Positions 3,323 through 55,334 of a DNA stretch of 64,000 nt are shown piece by piece (the first letter of the stretch is position 1; every line of letters begins with the position of its first letter). Source of the stretch: Sphingomonas sp. 67-36 (lineage in GTDB: Bacteria > Pseudomonadota > Alphaproteobacteria > Sphingomonadales > Sphingomonadaceae); contig MKSU01000005.1 of NCBI GenBank assembly GCA_001897375.1, positions 1-64,000 of the forward strand, read 5' to 3'. Made by a program: the position numbers and the translations under genes. The notes below the pieces were generated by a model, which searched no databases, was not told the origin of the DNA, and saw only the letters and a program-made list of their open reading frames with translations.

Positions 3323-4015
3323 TCACGCGGACGCATCGCTCCCCCAAATCGGGTTCTTCACTCTCCCCATGAACGCGGCATGGGCGGTGAGTTCCGCCTC
3401 GCTCGCCGAAAAAATTCGGGCGGGGCGCACCACCGAGGGCGTCCGCGCCTGCATCGACTGCGCCGCGGCGACCGCCACGTCGCTGACCAGCCCCAGCCCG
3501 ATCTGTCGCCCGCCGAGCAACTCGACATAGACCTGCGCCAGCAATTGCGCGTCGAGCAAGGCACCGTGCAGCACGCGATGCGACCGGTCGATCCCGTAGC
3601 GCGAGCAGAGCGCGTCGAGCGTGTGCTTCGCGCCGGGATGTTTCGATCGCGCGATGGTCAGCGTGTCGACCATCCGCGTCGTGCAAACCAGCGGGCGGCC
3701 GCATTGCTTCAACTCGCCGTTGAGGAAGCCGAAGTCGAATCCGGCATTGTGCGCGACGAGCGGCGCGTCGCCGATGAATTCCAGCATCGCCTCGACCAGC
3801 TCGGGGAAGCGCGGCTTGTCGGAAAGGAAGGCGTCGGACAGGCCGTGCACCGCGAACGCCTCGGCCGGCATCGCGCGATCCGGGTTGAAATAGGCGTGGA
3901 AGGTGCGGCCCGTCTCCACCCGGTTGAAGATCTCGACGCAGCCGATCTCCACCAGCCTGTCCCCGCCCGAGAAGCTGAGGCCAGTCGTTTCGGTATCGAA
4001 CACGATCTCCCGCAT
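3323..4015 (-). CDS. dnaQ: DNA polymerase III epsilon subunit (3'-5' exonuclease)
   Basis: A 230-residue DEDDh exonuclease, the proofreading subunit of Pol III. ExoI is FDTETTGLSF at residues 5-14, ExoII is LVAHNAGFDFGFL near residue 90, and ExoIII is HRVLHGALLDAQLL near residue 150. The start at MREIVFDTETTGL is canonical; an upstream in-frame start would run back into coaE. It lies 7 bases downstream of coaE. The order ppsR-maf-aroE-coaE-dnaQ beside the origin is a recognised conserved block in alphaproteobacteria such as Caulobacter. Confidence 0.95.
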   Translation of the reverse strand: MREIVFDTETTGLSFSGGDRLVEIGCVEIFNRVETGRTFHAYFNPDRAMPAEAFAVHGLSDAFLSDKPRFPELVEAMLEFIGDAPLVAHNAGFDFGFLNGELKQCGRPLVCTTRMVDTLTIARSKHPGAKHTLDALCSRYGIDRSHRVLHGALLDAQLLAQVYVELLGGRQIGLGLVSDVAVAAAQSMQARTPSVVRPARIFSASEAELTAHAAFMGRVKNPIWGSDASA

Positions 4016-43474: not shown

Positions 43475-43579
43475 TAGAGCGGTTGTCGATCCGATTGCAT
43501 CGGATCACCGCTCTATTTTCCTTTGTTTGCTGCGATTTCCGAGCCGGCAGGTGATTCCACCTGCTTCGAAATCGCTCTA
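43475..43579 (+). repeat. TA-bounded palindromic element, copy 1
   Basis: A 105-base element from TAGAGCGGTTGTCGA to TCGAAATCGCTCTA. Its ends are imperfect inverted repeats (TAGAGCGGTTGTCGA versus TAGAGCGATTTCGA read from the other end). Inside, one hairpin pairs GATCCGAT with ATCGGATC around TGC, and a second pairs GCAGGTG with CACCTGC inside GCGATTTC/GAAATCGC. The terminal TAG on the minus strand is the xerC stop codon. It looks like a MITE or REP-type element with TA ends; no transposase is nearby. A second copy is at 47650. Confidence 0.85.
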
Positions 43580-44580: not shown

Positions 44581-46761
44581 ATGGCGGGCATGTCCGCCCG
44601 TGCCCGCGTCCTGGTGCTCAATTCCGCGCTCGGCCCGCTCGATTATCGCGTCCCGCGCGGGATGGCGGTCGAGCCGGGGTCGATCGTCGTCGCGCCGCTC
44701 GGGCCGCGCCAGCTCGTCGGTGTGGTGTGGGAGCCGGAGCGGATGCCGTCCGATGCGGAGGTCGGCGACAACCGCCTGCGCAACCTGATCGCGGTGGCCG
44801 ACGCCCCGCCGCTGCGCGCGCCATTGCGCCGGCTGGTCGAGTGGACAGCGGATTACTACCTCGCCCCGCCCGCTTCGGTCGTGCGCATGGCCTTGTCCTC
44901 CTCCGCCGCGCTGGAGGGGCAGAAGCTCGTCATCGAATATCGCGCCACCGGCCACATTCCTGATCGCCTCACCCCGCAGCGCGCGCAGGCGCTGGAGCGA
45001 ATCGGCGATCGGCAGGGCCTGATCCGCGAGCTGGCGACGATCGCCGATGTCTCGGACGGCGTGATTCGCGGGCTGGTGAAGGCCGGCGCGATCGAGGGGG
45101 TGGAGGTTGATATCGACAGCCCCTATCCGCTGCCCGATCCGGATCACGCCCCGCCCGCGCTGTCAGCGGAGCAGCAGGCGGCGGCGGATGCGCTGGTGGC
45201 GGATGTGCGGGCGCATGATTTCCACCCGACTTTGCTCGATGGCGTCACCGGATCGGGCAAGACCGAGGTCTATTTCGAGGCGGTGGCGGAGGCGATCCGA
45301 CAGGGGCGGCAATGCCTCGTCCTGCTCCCCGAGATCGCGCTGACCGAGCCGTTCCTGAAACGCTTCCACGATCGCTTCGGCTGCGAGCCGGTGGCATGGC
45401 ATTCCGGGCTGCGCTCCTCCCAGCGCCGCCGCGCGTGGCGGGCGATCGCCTCCGGGCAGGCGGCGGTGACGGTCGGCGCGCGCTCGGCGCTGTTCCTGCC
45501 CTATGCGAACCTCGGCCTGATCGTGGTGGACGAGGCGCACGAGACCAGCTTCAAGCAGGAGGACGGGGTGCATTACCACGCGCGCGACGTGGCGGTGATG
45601 CGCGGCAAGTTCGAAAGCTGCCCGGTGATCCTTGCCTCCGCCACCCCGGCGATCGAGACGCGCCAGCAGGTGACGCTCGGCAATTACGCCGAACTTCGCC
45701 TTCCCGGCCGCTATGGCGCGGCGGAACTGCCGACGATCGAGGCGCTGGATCTGCTCGAACACAAGCCCGATCGCGGCCGCTGGCTCGCCCCGCCGCTGGT
45801 GAAGGCGCTGGGCGAGGTGCTGGAGCGGGGCGAGCAGTCCCTCCTGTTCCTCAATCGTCGCGGCTATGCCCCGCTTACCTTGTGCCGGACGTGCGGCCAC
45901 CGCTTCCAATGCCCCAATTGCACCGCATGGATGGTCGAGCACCGCCTGACGCGGCGGCTCGCCTGCCACCATTGCGGCCATGTCGAGCCGGTGCCGCGTG
46001 TCTGCCCGGAATGCCAGAACGAGGATACGCTGGTCGCCTGCGGCCCCGGCGTGGAGCGGATCGCCGACGAGGTGGCGGCGCTGTTCCCGGAAGCGCGGGT
46101 GGCGGTCGTTACGTCCGACACGATCTGGTCGCCCGCCAAGGCGGCGGAGTTCGTCAACCGGATGGAGGCGGGCGAGATCGACATCGTCGTCGGCACCCAG
46201 CTCGTCACCAAGGGCTATCACTTCCCGAACCTGACGCTCGTCGGCGTGGTGGACGCTGACCTCGGGCTGGAGGGCGGCGATCTGCGCGCGGCGGAGCGCA
46301 CCTTCCAGCAGATCCGGCAGGTTTCGGGGCGTGCCGGGCGCGGGGAGAAGCCGGGCCATGTCTATATCCAGACGCACAGCCCGAAGGCGCAGGTGATGCA
46401 GGCGCTGGTGACGGGCGATGCGGACGCCTTCTATGCCGCCGAGACGGAAGCGAGGCGCGAGGCGGGCGCCCCCCCGTTCGGCCGCTACGCCGCGATCGTC
46501 ATCTCCAGCGAGGATCAGCAGGCGGCGCACGAGATCGCCCGCCTGATCGGCCGCTCTGCCCCGGAGGTGGAGGGGATGCACGTCTACGGCCCCGCGCCCG
46601 CCCCGCTCGCGATGCTGCGCGGGCGGCACCGCTATCGCTTGCTGGTCCACGCGCGGCGGACACTGGATGTGCAGGATGTGATCCGCGGCTGGCTTGGCGC
46701 GCTCGACTGGCCGGCGAAGGTCAGGGTCGCCGTGGACGTGGACCCGTACAGTTTCTTGTGA
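44581..46761 (+). CDS. priA: Primosomal helicase PriA
   Basis: A 726-residue replication-restart helicase. Walker A is LLDGVTGSGKTEVYFE near residue 222, the DEAH box is IVVDEAHETSFKQEDG near residue 315, and the zinc-binding Cys cluster lies near residues 437-475 (CRTCGHRFQCPNC...ACHHCGHV...CPEC). VGTQLVTKGYHFPNLTLVGVVDAD and LIQVSGRAGRG-like QIRQVSGRAGRGEKPG follow. Starts at 44581 or 44590 (ATG). It diverges from xerC. Confidence 0.96.
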   Translation: MAGMSARARVLVLNSALGPLDYRVPRGMAVEPGSIVVAPLGPRQLVGVVWEPERMPSDAEVGDNRLRNLIAVADAPPLRAPLRRLVEWTADYYLAPPASVVRMALSSSAALEGQKLVIEYRATGHIPDRLTPQRAQALERIGDRQGLIRELATIADVSDGVIRGLVKAGAIEGVEVDIDSPYPLPDPDHAPPALSAEQQAAADALVADVRAHDFHPTLLDGVTGSGKTEVYFEAVAEAIRQGRQCLVLLPEIALTEPFLKRFHDRFGCEPVAWHSGLRSSQRRRAWRAIASGQAAVTVGARSALFLPYANLGLIVVDEAHETSFKQEDGVHYHARDVAVMRGKFESCPVILASATPAIETRQQVTLGNYAELRLPGRYGAAELPTIEALDLLEHKPDRGRWLAPPLVKALGEVLERGEQSLLFLNRRGYAPLTLCRTCGHRFQCPNCTAWMVEHRLTRRLACHHCGHVEPVPRVCPECQNEDTLVACGPGVERIADEVAALFPEARVAVVTSDTIWSPAKAAEFVNRMEAGEIDIVVGTQLVTKGYHFPNLTLVGVVDADLGLEGGDLRAAERTFQQIRQVSGRAGRGEKPGHVYIQTHSPKAQVMQALVTGDADAFYAAETEARREAGAPPFGRYAAIVISSEDQQAAHEIARLIGRSAPEVEGMHVYGPAPAPLAMLRGRHRYRLLVHARRTLDVQDVIRGWLGALDWPAKVRVAVDVDPYSFL

Positions 46762-46985
46762 GCGAAGTCTTCTGTTGCGGCTTGGATCGTAATCCCGAGC
46801 CTTTCAGGTTCATGGAAAATTGAATGAAAAGCGTGAACGATTTGGCGTTGGTCATGAGGCAAGTCCTCCGAAATGCCATACGGCCTTTCCACGCTAGCCT
46901 GCGAACGCACAGTTGGAAGCAGAGTATGATCCAAAACGGTTCTTTAAATTTCAGGAACCGGCACGGAACATGTTAAGAACTAGGG

Positions 46986-47549
46986 GTGAACAAAGAAACG
47001 ACCATCAACCTGCTTGTCAGCGGTAGAGCCGCCTGCTTCCGCAGGCCGGAGTTTTCCGACGATCTGGTCAGCTACGATGTGATGCCTCCCACGATCGCGC
47101 GACGCTTGGTGGAAACGGCGCTTCCGCAAAATTCGGGGCAAATTGCGATTCGAAAGATTTACGTAATCAATCCAATACGCTTGCGCTGGCAGAATATCGA
47201 AACGGTGCGCCGATCATGCCGGGCGTTGGTGTTATTGGATGTATGCTATGTAATTGAGGTTGTTGTTTTGACTTCACGGGATTGCGAGGGCTGCGATTGG
47301 CTGTCGGAGATAACGCATAGATTTGCCGCTCCCGTCAGCGCGCATCTTGGCCTTGTGGATTTTCCCGCGACGGTATCGCTTGTCCGAGGGAAAATTCCCC
47401 GATCCGCCCTGTCGGGAACCGGAACGATTGATCTCGGCTGGATGGTGTCCGATCTGGGCCGCGGCAAGCGCGGGCAATTCCGCCGGCTCAGCATGCGGGA
47501 AGGCCTGATTGATTTATCCGATCAGGACCAATCAATGCATGCCAGTTGA
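46986..47549 (+). CDS. cas5: Isolated Cas5 (type I-C, Cas5d-like) RAMP protein
   Basis: A 187-residue protein whose pattern follows Cas5d of type I-C CRISPR systems. Residues 11-22 VSGRAACFRRPE and 29-32 SYDV match the Cas5d start; residues 58-67 IYVINPIRLR and 84-91 LDVCYVIE match the middle; residues 121-127 LGLVDFP and 148-156 IDLGWMVSD plus 171-178 REGLIDLS match the end. No Lys-His pair, used for crRNA cleavage in characterised Cas5d, occurs in it. It has a GTG start just after AGGG and no other cas gene or repeat array nearby. Composition is distinctly less GC-rich than its neighbours (26 G+C in 47221-47280), suggesting transfer. It could be a remnant or repurposed. Confidence 0.78.
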   Translation: MNKETTINLLVSGRAACFRRPEFSDDLVSYDVMPPTIARRLVETALPQNSGQIAIRKIYVINPIRLRWQNIETVRRSCRALVLLDVCYVIEVVVLTSRDCEGCDWLSEITHRFAAPVSAHLGLVDFPATVSLVRGKIPRSALSGTGTIDLGWMVSDLGRGKRGQFRRLSMREGLIDLSDQDQSMHAS

Positions 47550-47649: not shown

Positions 47650-47774
47650 TAGAGCGGTTGTCGATCCGATTGCATCGGATCACCGCTCTATTTTCCTTTG
47701 TTTGCCGCGATTTCCGAGCCGGCAGGTGATTAGCTGCACTGAACTGCGTTTCCACCTGCCTCGAAATCGCTCTA
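47650..47774 (+). repeat. TA-bounded palindromic element, copy 2
   Basis: A 125-base copy of the element at 43475, in the same orientation. It is nearly identical for the first 80 bases but carries an extra 20 bases (AGCTGCACTGAACTGCGTTT) between GGTGATT and CCACCTGC, inside the second hairpin loop. Its last bases CTCTA supply the TAG stop codon of atpC on the minus strand. The gap 47550-47771 holds this element and no gene I can support. Confidence 0.85.
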
Positions 47775-48023
47775 AGACGCGTGTTCCGCCAGTACCGTCA
47801 GCCCCTTGGCGTTGACCTCGGCGAAGCCACCGCGGATCGCGATCGTCTCCGGCGCGCCGCCGGCGGTGCGCTGGACGAGCAGGTCGCCGTCGCGGATCGT
47901 CGACATCAGGGGCGCATGGCCCTCCAGCACCGCGAAATCACCCTCCGAGCCGGGCACGGTGACCATATGCACGTCCTCGGATCGGATCAGGCGCTCGGGC
48001 GTGACGAGTTCGAAATGCAGCAT
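47772..48023 (-). CDS. atpC: ATP synthase epsilon subunit (short form)
   Basis: An 83-residue F1 epsilon subunit consisting only of the N-terminal beta-sandwich: [39 protein letters not shown] and [20 protein letters not shown]. The C-terminal helical hairpin, which in E. coli epsilon inhibits ATP hydrolysis, is absent; it is about 50 residues shorter than full-length forms. The stop codon is provided by the adjoining palindromic element. AGGAAG precedes the ATG; a hairpin lies just upstream, 48037-48063. Confidence 0.93.
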
Positions 48024-54293: not shown

Positions 54294-55334
54294 ATGACCG
54301 ACGCCATCGACACCGCCGCCGCCTGGGCCGCCTTTTCAGGCCGGGACCGCAATGCCGACGGGCGCTTCGTCGTCGCGGTCAGGACCACCGGCATCTATTG
54401 CAAGCCGAGCTGCCCCGCGCGCCACCCGAAGCGCGAGAACGTCAGCTTCTTCGCGGACGGCGCGGCGGCGGCGCAGGCCGGCTATCGCCCGTGCCTGCGC
54501 TGCAAGCCGGACGAGGTGGGGCGGGACCGCATCGCCGTGGCGCGGGCGGTGGCGGCGATCGAGGCGAGCGAGGAGGCGATCCCGCTCGAAGATATCGCCG
54601 CGCGGGTCGGCTATGCGCCGCATCATTTCCACCGCTTGTTCAAACGCGCGACGGGCGTGACCCCGGCGGCCTATGCGCGCGGCCTCAAGGCGCGCCGCGC
54701 GGCCGAGGCGCTGAGCGGCGAGGAGCGCGTGACCCCGGCGATCTATGAGGCGGGTTATTCCGCGCCGAGCCGTTTCTATGAACATGGCGCGAAGCGGCTC
54801 GGCATGTCGCCGGGGGCATGGGTGCGCGGCGGCGCCGGAGTGACGATCCGCTGGACGATCGTGCCGACCAGCCTCGGCCCGCTGCTTGTCGCGGCGACCG
54901 ACAGGGGGCTGTGCCGCGTGTCGTTCGAGGAGGATGCGCTGGCGCTCGCCGCCCGCTTCCCGCGCGCCACGATCGAGCCAGGCGGCGCTGCGCTGGCGGC
55001 GCTGGCGGCGAAGGTCGTCGCGGCGGTCGAATCGCCCGAGCGCGACCAGAACCTGCCGCTCGACGTGCGCGGCACCGCGTTCCAGGAGGCGATCTGGCAG
55101 GCGCTGCGCGCGATTCCCGCCGGGGAGACCCGCAGCTATGCCGAGCTCGCCGCGATCGCCGGCAGTCCCGGCGCGGTCCGCGCGGCCGGATCGGCATGCG
55201 GCGCGAATCCGGTGGCGGTCGTCATCCCCTGCCATCGGGCGCAGCGCAGCGACGGGGGCGAAGGCGGCTATGCCTATGGCCTTGAACGCAAACGTATCCT
55301 GCGCGCGCGGGAAAGCGCGGAACAAAGTGGTTAG
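54294..55334 (+). CDS. ada: Ada: adaptive-response regulator and O6-methylguanine-DNA methyltransferase
   Basis: A 346-residue three-domain Ada. The N-terminal zinc/methyl-phosphotriester domain has Cys in TTGIYCKPSCPARHPKRENV and YRPCLRCKPDEVG. A central AraC-type HTH follows (LEDIAARVGYAPHHFHRLFKRATGVTPAAY). The C-terminal methyltransferase has VIPCHRAQRSDG. Methylated Ada should activate its regulon. A stand-alone Ogt exists at 26614. It diverges from the enoyl-CoA hydratase gene. Confidence 0.93.
   Translation: MTDAIDTAAAWAAFSGRDRNADGRFVVAVRTTGIYCKPSCPARHPKRENVSFFADGAAAAQAGYRPCLRCKPDEVGRDRIAVARAVAAIEASEEAIPLEDIAARVGYAPHHFHRLFKRATGVTPAAYARGLKARRAAEALSGEERVTPAIYEAGYSAPSRFYEHGAKRLGMSPGAWVRGGAGVTIRWTIVPTSLGPLLVAATDRGLCRVSFEEDALALAARFPRATIEPGGAALAALAAKVVAAVESPERDQNLPLDVRGTAFQEAIWQALRAIPAGETRSYAELAAIAGSPGAVRAAGSACGANPVAVVIPCHRAQRSDGGEGGYAYGLERKRILRARESAEQSG

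Follow-up and report, generated by a model that had tools for sequence, protein, structure and literature searches.

The closest described relatives of the protein reported here are the Cas5 subunits of type I-C CRISPR-Cas systems (structures 3kg4, 3vzi, 4f3m, 8dej, and 7kha), and for Cas5d a putative Tyr46-Lys116-His117 triad has been reported (PMC3652601). Cas5 relatives are also described outside complete systems. AcrIB3, as presented in PMC13131331 together with other virus-borne Cas homologues, is a lone Cas5 relative that is missing a segment and belongs to the I-B setting. HRAMP and other array-less CRISPR derivatives contain a diverged Cas5 without a CRISPR array, HRAMP combining Cas5 with Cas7 and nucleases (PMC8730458). 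Isolated or orphan cas loci likewise consist of cas genes without an array; the survey in PMC5294841 counts loci with at least three cas genes, so that single genes fall outside it. The gene analyzed here lies in the window, i.e., the whole 64,000-nt stretch of Sphingomonas sp. 67-36 DNA under study, and is an intact member of a Sphingomonas-centered family of solitary ("solo") Cas5 proteins that stands out of CRISPR altogether. Solo Cas5 resembles type I-C Cas5 in fold and sequence over nearly its whole length, the two having in common the motifs ACFxRPEF, SYDV, FPA, and DLGWM, but it lacks I-C partners and repeats, nearly always the processing lysine, and most of the C-terminal region. Unlike virus-borne AcrIB3, it is chromosomal, of I-C descent, and associated with a micro-ORF, with no phage or viral copies found in our searches, and in contrast to HRAMP its loci hold a single RAMP gene plus the micro-ORF. 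In the open-licence papers that we searched, no family of solitary Cas5 proteins had been described from Sphingomonas.

The window gene descends from type I-C Cas5 (Cas5d/Cas5c). Its frame is uninterrupted, with no internal stop codon, and the PADLOC Cas5c profile PDLC01264 aligned to residues 7 to 176 of the protein over profile positions 1 to 176 of 178 (E-value, 7.8e-18). Sequence searches of the PDB returned 3kg4 (E-value, 4.5e-14), 8dex (6.2e-12), and 7kha (8.1e-12). The protein misses the curated thresholds of Pfam (21.7 versus 23 bits) and NCBIfam TIGR01876 (33.1 versus 85 bits), as fits a diverged member of the Cas5 family. An AlphaFold2 model computed from an alignment of four rows (pLDDT, 74.6; pTM, 0.77) was compared with the PDB by Foldseek, whose top 11 matches (E-values of 1.3e-13 to 1.1e-8) included 8dej, 3kg4, 3vzi, 4f3m, 3vzh, 4r0j, 7kha, 8g9s, and 8g9t, all 11 chains being either type I-C Cas5 or also found by the family profile. 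The model thus has the RAMP/RRM fold, with an E-value of 1.3e-13 to 8dej_A and a query TM score of 0.80 to 4f3m_A. The original prediction had described the protein as Cas5d-like along its length; the PADLOC profile, the PDB sequences, and the modeled structure all agree with this, the best structural matches being type I-C Cas5 or chains also found by the family profile, and the PADLOC, PDB-sequence, and Foldseek matches also rule out a chance ORF. By profile and fold, the protein is a member of the Cas5c/d family, but it lacks the processing site and every system-level feature for which we searched. The features of the locus are collected in Table 1.

Table 1. Positions of the features of the solo cas5 locus and of a repeated element in the window
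Feature	Position	Strand	Remarks
Solitary cas5 (type I-C descent)	46986..47549	+	GTG start; 187 aa; stop included
Start-region stretch TTAAGAAC-N5-GTG	46974..46988	+	Alike in S. jeddahensis and at loci L052/L061
Divergent micro-ORF	46721..46855	-	44 codons plus stop; peptide the most atypical among the 23 candidates
Micro-ORF leader GGAGGACTTGCCTCATGAC (ribosome-binding site and start)	46851..46869	-	Identical in S. jeddahensis
82-nt element, copy after solo cas5	47650..47731		
82-nt element, copy after xerC-like gene	43475..43556		

A scan for sigma-70 promoters and terminators between positions 46600 and 47900 returned no site; TTAAGAAC-N5-GTG is possibly a promoter element for a leaderless mRNA. 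The two copies of the 82-nt element are 98.8% identical and have inverted-repeat character; the element looks like a dispersed intergenic repeat. A known RNA in the vicinity was ruled out: the sole Rfam match, 5 kb away, scored below the threshold (22.7 versus 70 bits) and is due to chance.

No CRISPR partners accompany the gene. The window contains no array-like repeats, and a hidden array was ruled out, the sole candidate being one pair of 30-nt copies, 80% alike, at positions 54646 to 54747. The genome of the strain yielded a single Cas5 match and none of the other type I-C components for which it was searched, namely Cas7, Cas1, Cas8c, and an I-C-type repeat pattern. The original prediction that the gene has no other cas gene and no array around it therefore holds for the window and extends to the genome-wide searches for Cas5, Cas7, Cas1, Cas8c, and repeats. 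This pattern was common to the family described below. Cas7 (PF05107) was detected in 0 of 29 solo genomes versus 5 of 6 I-C genomes, a profile that a very diverged Cas7 would escape, and so by PF05107 no Cas7 homologue accompanies the Cas5 homologue as it would in an HRAMP-like system. The I-C repeat pattern was likewise confined to I-C genomes (0/29 versus 5/6), as was Cas8c (0 of the 21 solo genomes searched versus 3/3). Cas1 was matched in 5 of 6 I-C genomes and in 3 of 29 solo genomes (G440, G564, and G513), where the matches were weak or, by score, of another type. These three lie at a distance from the solo gene (G440:C10:338767, G564:C41:38916, and G513:C15:610-1260), the match in G513 consisting of two pieces in one frame. 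In the 12-kb neighborhoods, clusters of cas3, cas8c, cas7, and cas1 occurred only at I-C loci, and solo neighborhoods contained no other cas remnant. One of the I-C loci, L085 in G280, is shortened and comprises cas3, cas5, and cas8c, with no match to Cas7, to Cas1, or to the repeat pattern.

Among named genomes, our scan uncovered one full I-C locus and two relatives of the window gene: a copy in S. jeddahensis (49% identity), a species with two copies, at a different chromosomal place and a copy in S. gellani (40% identity) at the same priA-atpC place, the latter with a stop codon immediately ahead of the conserved ACFRR. Profile A1, built from three sequences and run on 295 Sphingomonas genomes, matched in 34 of them, 6 of which (G398, G280, G530, G664, G672, and G493) encode a longer Cas5 in an I-C setting. 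The short solitary Cas5 was found at 33 loci in 28 of the 295 genomes and at 2 further loci in G266, which belongs to one other genus of the same family; the solo set is thus made up of 35 loci in 29 genomes. A 30-row profile matched in 11 of 397 genomes of the family and 15 of 385 of the class, and the matches inspected beyond Sphingomonas and G266 were longer (at least 220 aa), I-C-like Cas5 proteins. A very diverged 216-aa Cas5-like protein is encoded on the minus strand at L114 (G1024), in another family of the class (E-value, 6.9e-12). The I-C rows are set apart in the tree by a branch with a support of 79.7, which is not starred, and the solo family may therefore have arisen once.

The solo genes occupy conserved chromosomal places. 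The window copy is flanked on one side by a gene that we take to be priA (ending at 46761) and on the other by presumed ATP-synthase genes, named from their translations: atpC (47772-48023), followed by atpD, atpG, and atpA, all on the minus strand. priA and/or ATP-synthase genes were present in 8 of the 35 neighborhoods, and proS in 17, always on the same strand and downstream, within ~80 nt except at L071 (788 nt); negative cas5-proS gaps are an artefact of over-long start calls. A third place is common to L074, L076, and L079, and three genomes (G455, G576, and G539) have two copies, one of them at proS. Distances between ProS proteins correlated with those between solo Cas5 proteins (r = 0.66; n = 15; permutation p = 0.0002), and the nearest taxon was the same by both proteins in 9 of 15 cases and different in 6. 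In G432, the EamA-proS spacer contains ~1.0 kb with cas5 and the micro-ORF, versus 38 to 49 nt in four relatives with 99% identical ProS, indicating that both genes were gained or lost jointly as a cassette. Thirty loci were read at the proS place, and L145 and L146 were excluded because of wrong orientation; the 28 usable loci had either both cas5 and the micro-ORF (5) or neither (23), the 5 micro-ORFs being among the rows of the profile itself. We found no relative in phages, and 0 of 16 pattern matches in viral contigs were confirmed, so that these searches did not identify the family as phage or mobile-element encoded. Among the matches listed in two plasmid searches, 17 of 20 and 18 of 20 were annotated as type I-C Cas5 and the remainder were unannotated. 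No mobile genes adjoin the window copy and, together with the lack of phage or viral matches, this rules out prophage or plasmid cargo. Transposase-like pieces adjoin the solo copy at L057, and the surroundings of L077, L078, and L080 are less conserved.

Close intact solo pairs are under purifying selection. The eight intact pairs with a dS of <1.2 had dN/dS values of 0.07, 0.13, 0.22, 0.25, 0.28, 0.31, 0.35, and 0.43, compared with 0.26 to 0.39 for three pairs of I-C cas5 genes of the same genus and mostly 0.01 to 0.3 for neighbor genes. The window copy is without a close relative, and its dN/dS of 0.29 against S. jeddahensis was obtained at a dS of 1.8, near saturation. Protein divergence of the solo copies was 3 to 9 times that of their neighbors, with dS also higher in some pairs. 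Window cas5 has a GC content of 0.55 and a GC3 of 0.62 versus 0.69 and 0.87 for the 47 other window genes, and solo GC3 was below the neighbor mean at all 35 loci; fast divergence and low GC3 would also fit transfer or weak constraint. The frame is uninterrupted at 29 of the 35 loci and broken at 6 (L018, L058, L061, L066, L082, and L086), and the S. gellani copy, at the window's own priA-atpC place, is among the broken ones. A decaying fragment was one of the options put forward in the original prediction, which also proposed comparing orthologues between priA and atpC and their dN/dS. The broken copies, that of S. gellani included, speak for decay in part, but across the family the option is unsupported given the intact frames, the dN/dS values, and the fixed chromosomal places.

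The processing lysine has been lost from almost the whole family. In the alignment, the lysine column is occupied by Lys in 8 of 8 I-C rows versus 1 of 30 solo rows and the histidine column by His in 8 of 8 versus 21 of 30. Both residues are gone from the window protein, where these columns read Asp-Trp, bearing out the earlier observation that it has no Lys-His pair, and the histidine is also gone from its nearest relatives. The tyrosine column is of little information because it contains His in 7 of the 8 I-C rows. The number of residues that follow IRLR is 34 to 39 in the 8 I-C rows and 1 to 22 in the 30 solo rows. G266, the genome outside Sphingomonas, encodes two solitary Cas5 proteins, one broken (L082) and one intact (L081) that is the sole solo row with Lys-His kept; this pair may possibly represent an early stage of the solo family.

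A small ORF on the opposite strand, which the original prediction did not include, lies upstream of solo cas5 at 23 of the 35 loci, 121 to 247 nt from the cas5 start, and would be the second gene of a minimal system. Candidates were chosen by eye, and 12 of the 35 loci show none. The encoded peptides (29 to 61 aa) begin with a stretch of alternating hydrophobic residues, which a turn separates from another stretch of this kind, and end in a basic proline-rich tail. The micro-ORF is constrained as a protein: across five pairs aligned without gaps, the three codon positions had 40/24/63 differences, and the pooled pN/pS was 0.40 in frame versus 0.98 and 1.52 when the frame was shifted; a sixth pair gave 10/2/19. 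Two of these pairs involve a genome whose cas5 is broken. A leave-clade-out profile recovered 12 of the 23 micro-ORFs, with weak E-values, and 3 more as the same ORF but displaced. An obvious ribosome-binding site was lacking in 6 of the 23 in the scan used, and Pfam searches with five micro-peptides returned no family match at an E-value of 0.1 or better. The window micro-ORF was missed by the leave-clade-out profile and, its peptide also being atypical, its assignment relies on leader and position. Exact matches to the leader GGAGGRCTNGCCTCATGAY occurred five times in the 295 genomes, all at solo loci and the window's included. Sites with one mismatch include L062, L052, and G475, the last with a micro-ORF and a cas5 remnant, as well as the unrelated G524; we relied on sites with no more than one mismatch, since with two mismatches the pattern mostly matches by chance (67 of 295 genomes, the reversed control also matching many). 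In the window, GAGG and CCTC could pair across the ribosome-binding site of the leader, and a short hairpin able to cover this site was found in ~10 slot-A-like leaders and is absent from the others. The two genes are not strictly interdependent, as is evident from mismatched states: the micro-ORF is intact beside a broken or deleted cas5 in G539 and G475, and apparently frameshifted beside an intact cas5 at L074. The G475 locus (L117, ~3580-4000) comes from a close relative of G534, and most of its solo cas5 is deleted.

We give an even chance to the reading that the gene is a domesticated, non-processing Cas5 that would bind RNA as part of a two-gene divergent cassette. A family kept free of CRISPR, and frequently accompanied by a very small gene encoded on the other strand, probably has a different, RNA-related job, and retention of the RRM-type fold together with loss of Lys (or Lys-His) and of most of the segment after IRLR makes it most likely that solo Cas5 binds structured RNA but does not process it as I-C Cas5 does. 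The ligand would be a hairpin in cellular or foreign RNA. One candidate is the hairpin that may form over the micro-ORF's ribosome-binding site, where binding would control the micro-ORF; autoregulation through the leader hairpin is thus our proposal. The micro-peptide, in which two stretches resemble strands and the tail is basic, would form the other half of the cassette, as the partner of Cas5 or as its regulated product.

The strongest rival, although an unlikely one, comes from analogy with AcrIB3, a Cas5 homologue without an 18-residue hook that displaces Cas5 (PMC13131331). By this account, the solo stub would be a dominant-negative blocker that replaces true Cas5 in an incoming type I-C Cascade, borne by a plasmid or another element, and poisons it. 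The solo proteins do keep the Cas5 core while having lost one segment and the processing lysine, and I-C systems are present within this bacterial family, including on Zymomonas plasmids, with 6 of the 295 Sphingomonas genomes among their carriers. However, I-C is rare in Sphingomonas, AcrIB3 is of the I-B type, and the lost segment is only a putative counterpart of its hook; moreover, the solo genes sit at stable chromosomal places, with no copies found in phages or viral contigs, and the blocker leaves the micro-ORF unexplained. That explanation is closely followed, at a slightly lower probability, by a phage-defense or toxin-antitoxin-like unit, suggested by gene content, in which the micro-peptide would be toxic or active and Cas5 would control it by RNA binding, or the reverse. 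Such a unit would account for a compact divergent two-gene cassette that is gained and lost as a whole, patchy (28/295), fast evolving, and AT-richer than its neighbors. It fits less well with the persistence of either gene after damage to the other (G539 and G475 for the micro-ORF; L074 for cas5), with locations mostly beside housekeeping genes rather than in defense islands, and with the five micro-peptides that have no Pfam family match at the threshold given above.

Slow decay of a former I-C locus is more doubtful again. The window copy's low GC3 and unusual codon usage, the rapid divergence, and the 6 broken copies out of 35 would be expected of a remnant, but 29 frames have been kept, dN/dS is 0.07 to 0.43 in the eight intact pairs, no other cas remnant lies nearby, and distant species have the gene at the same places. 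We consider it very improbable that the protein is an RNase whose active site has been rearranged so that the conserved histidine and another group would cut a new RNA: His is retained in 21 of 30 solo rows despite the loss of Lys, but it too has disappeared from the window protein and from those closest to it, and the substrate is purely hypothetical. The domesticated, non-processing RNA-binding Cas5 that we prefer merges two options of the original prediction, a domesticated RNA-binding protein and a divergent minimal system.

For the family, a more specific view, tentative and somewhat short of an even chance, is that a solitary Cas5 incapable of processing and a divergently encoded micro-protein make up a new CRISPR-derived two-gene system of ~1 kb on Sphingomonas chromosomes that works without crRNA, as a stand-alone reader of RNA hairpins in regulation or defense. 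The annotation "Cas5" is by itself no proof of CRISPR, and the 35 loci are a ready comparative set for finding what solo Cas5 binds. If the proposal is true, this would be the smallest RAMP derivative known to us, the known array-less derivatives retaining several effector subunits, and Cas5 alone could be recruited as an RNA-binding protein.
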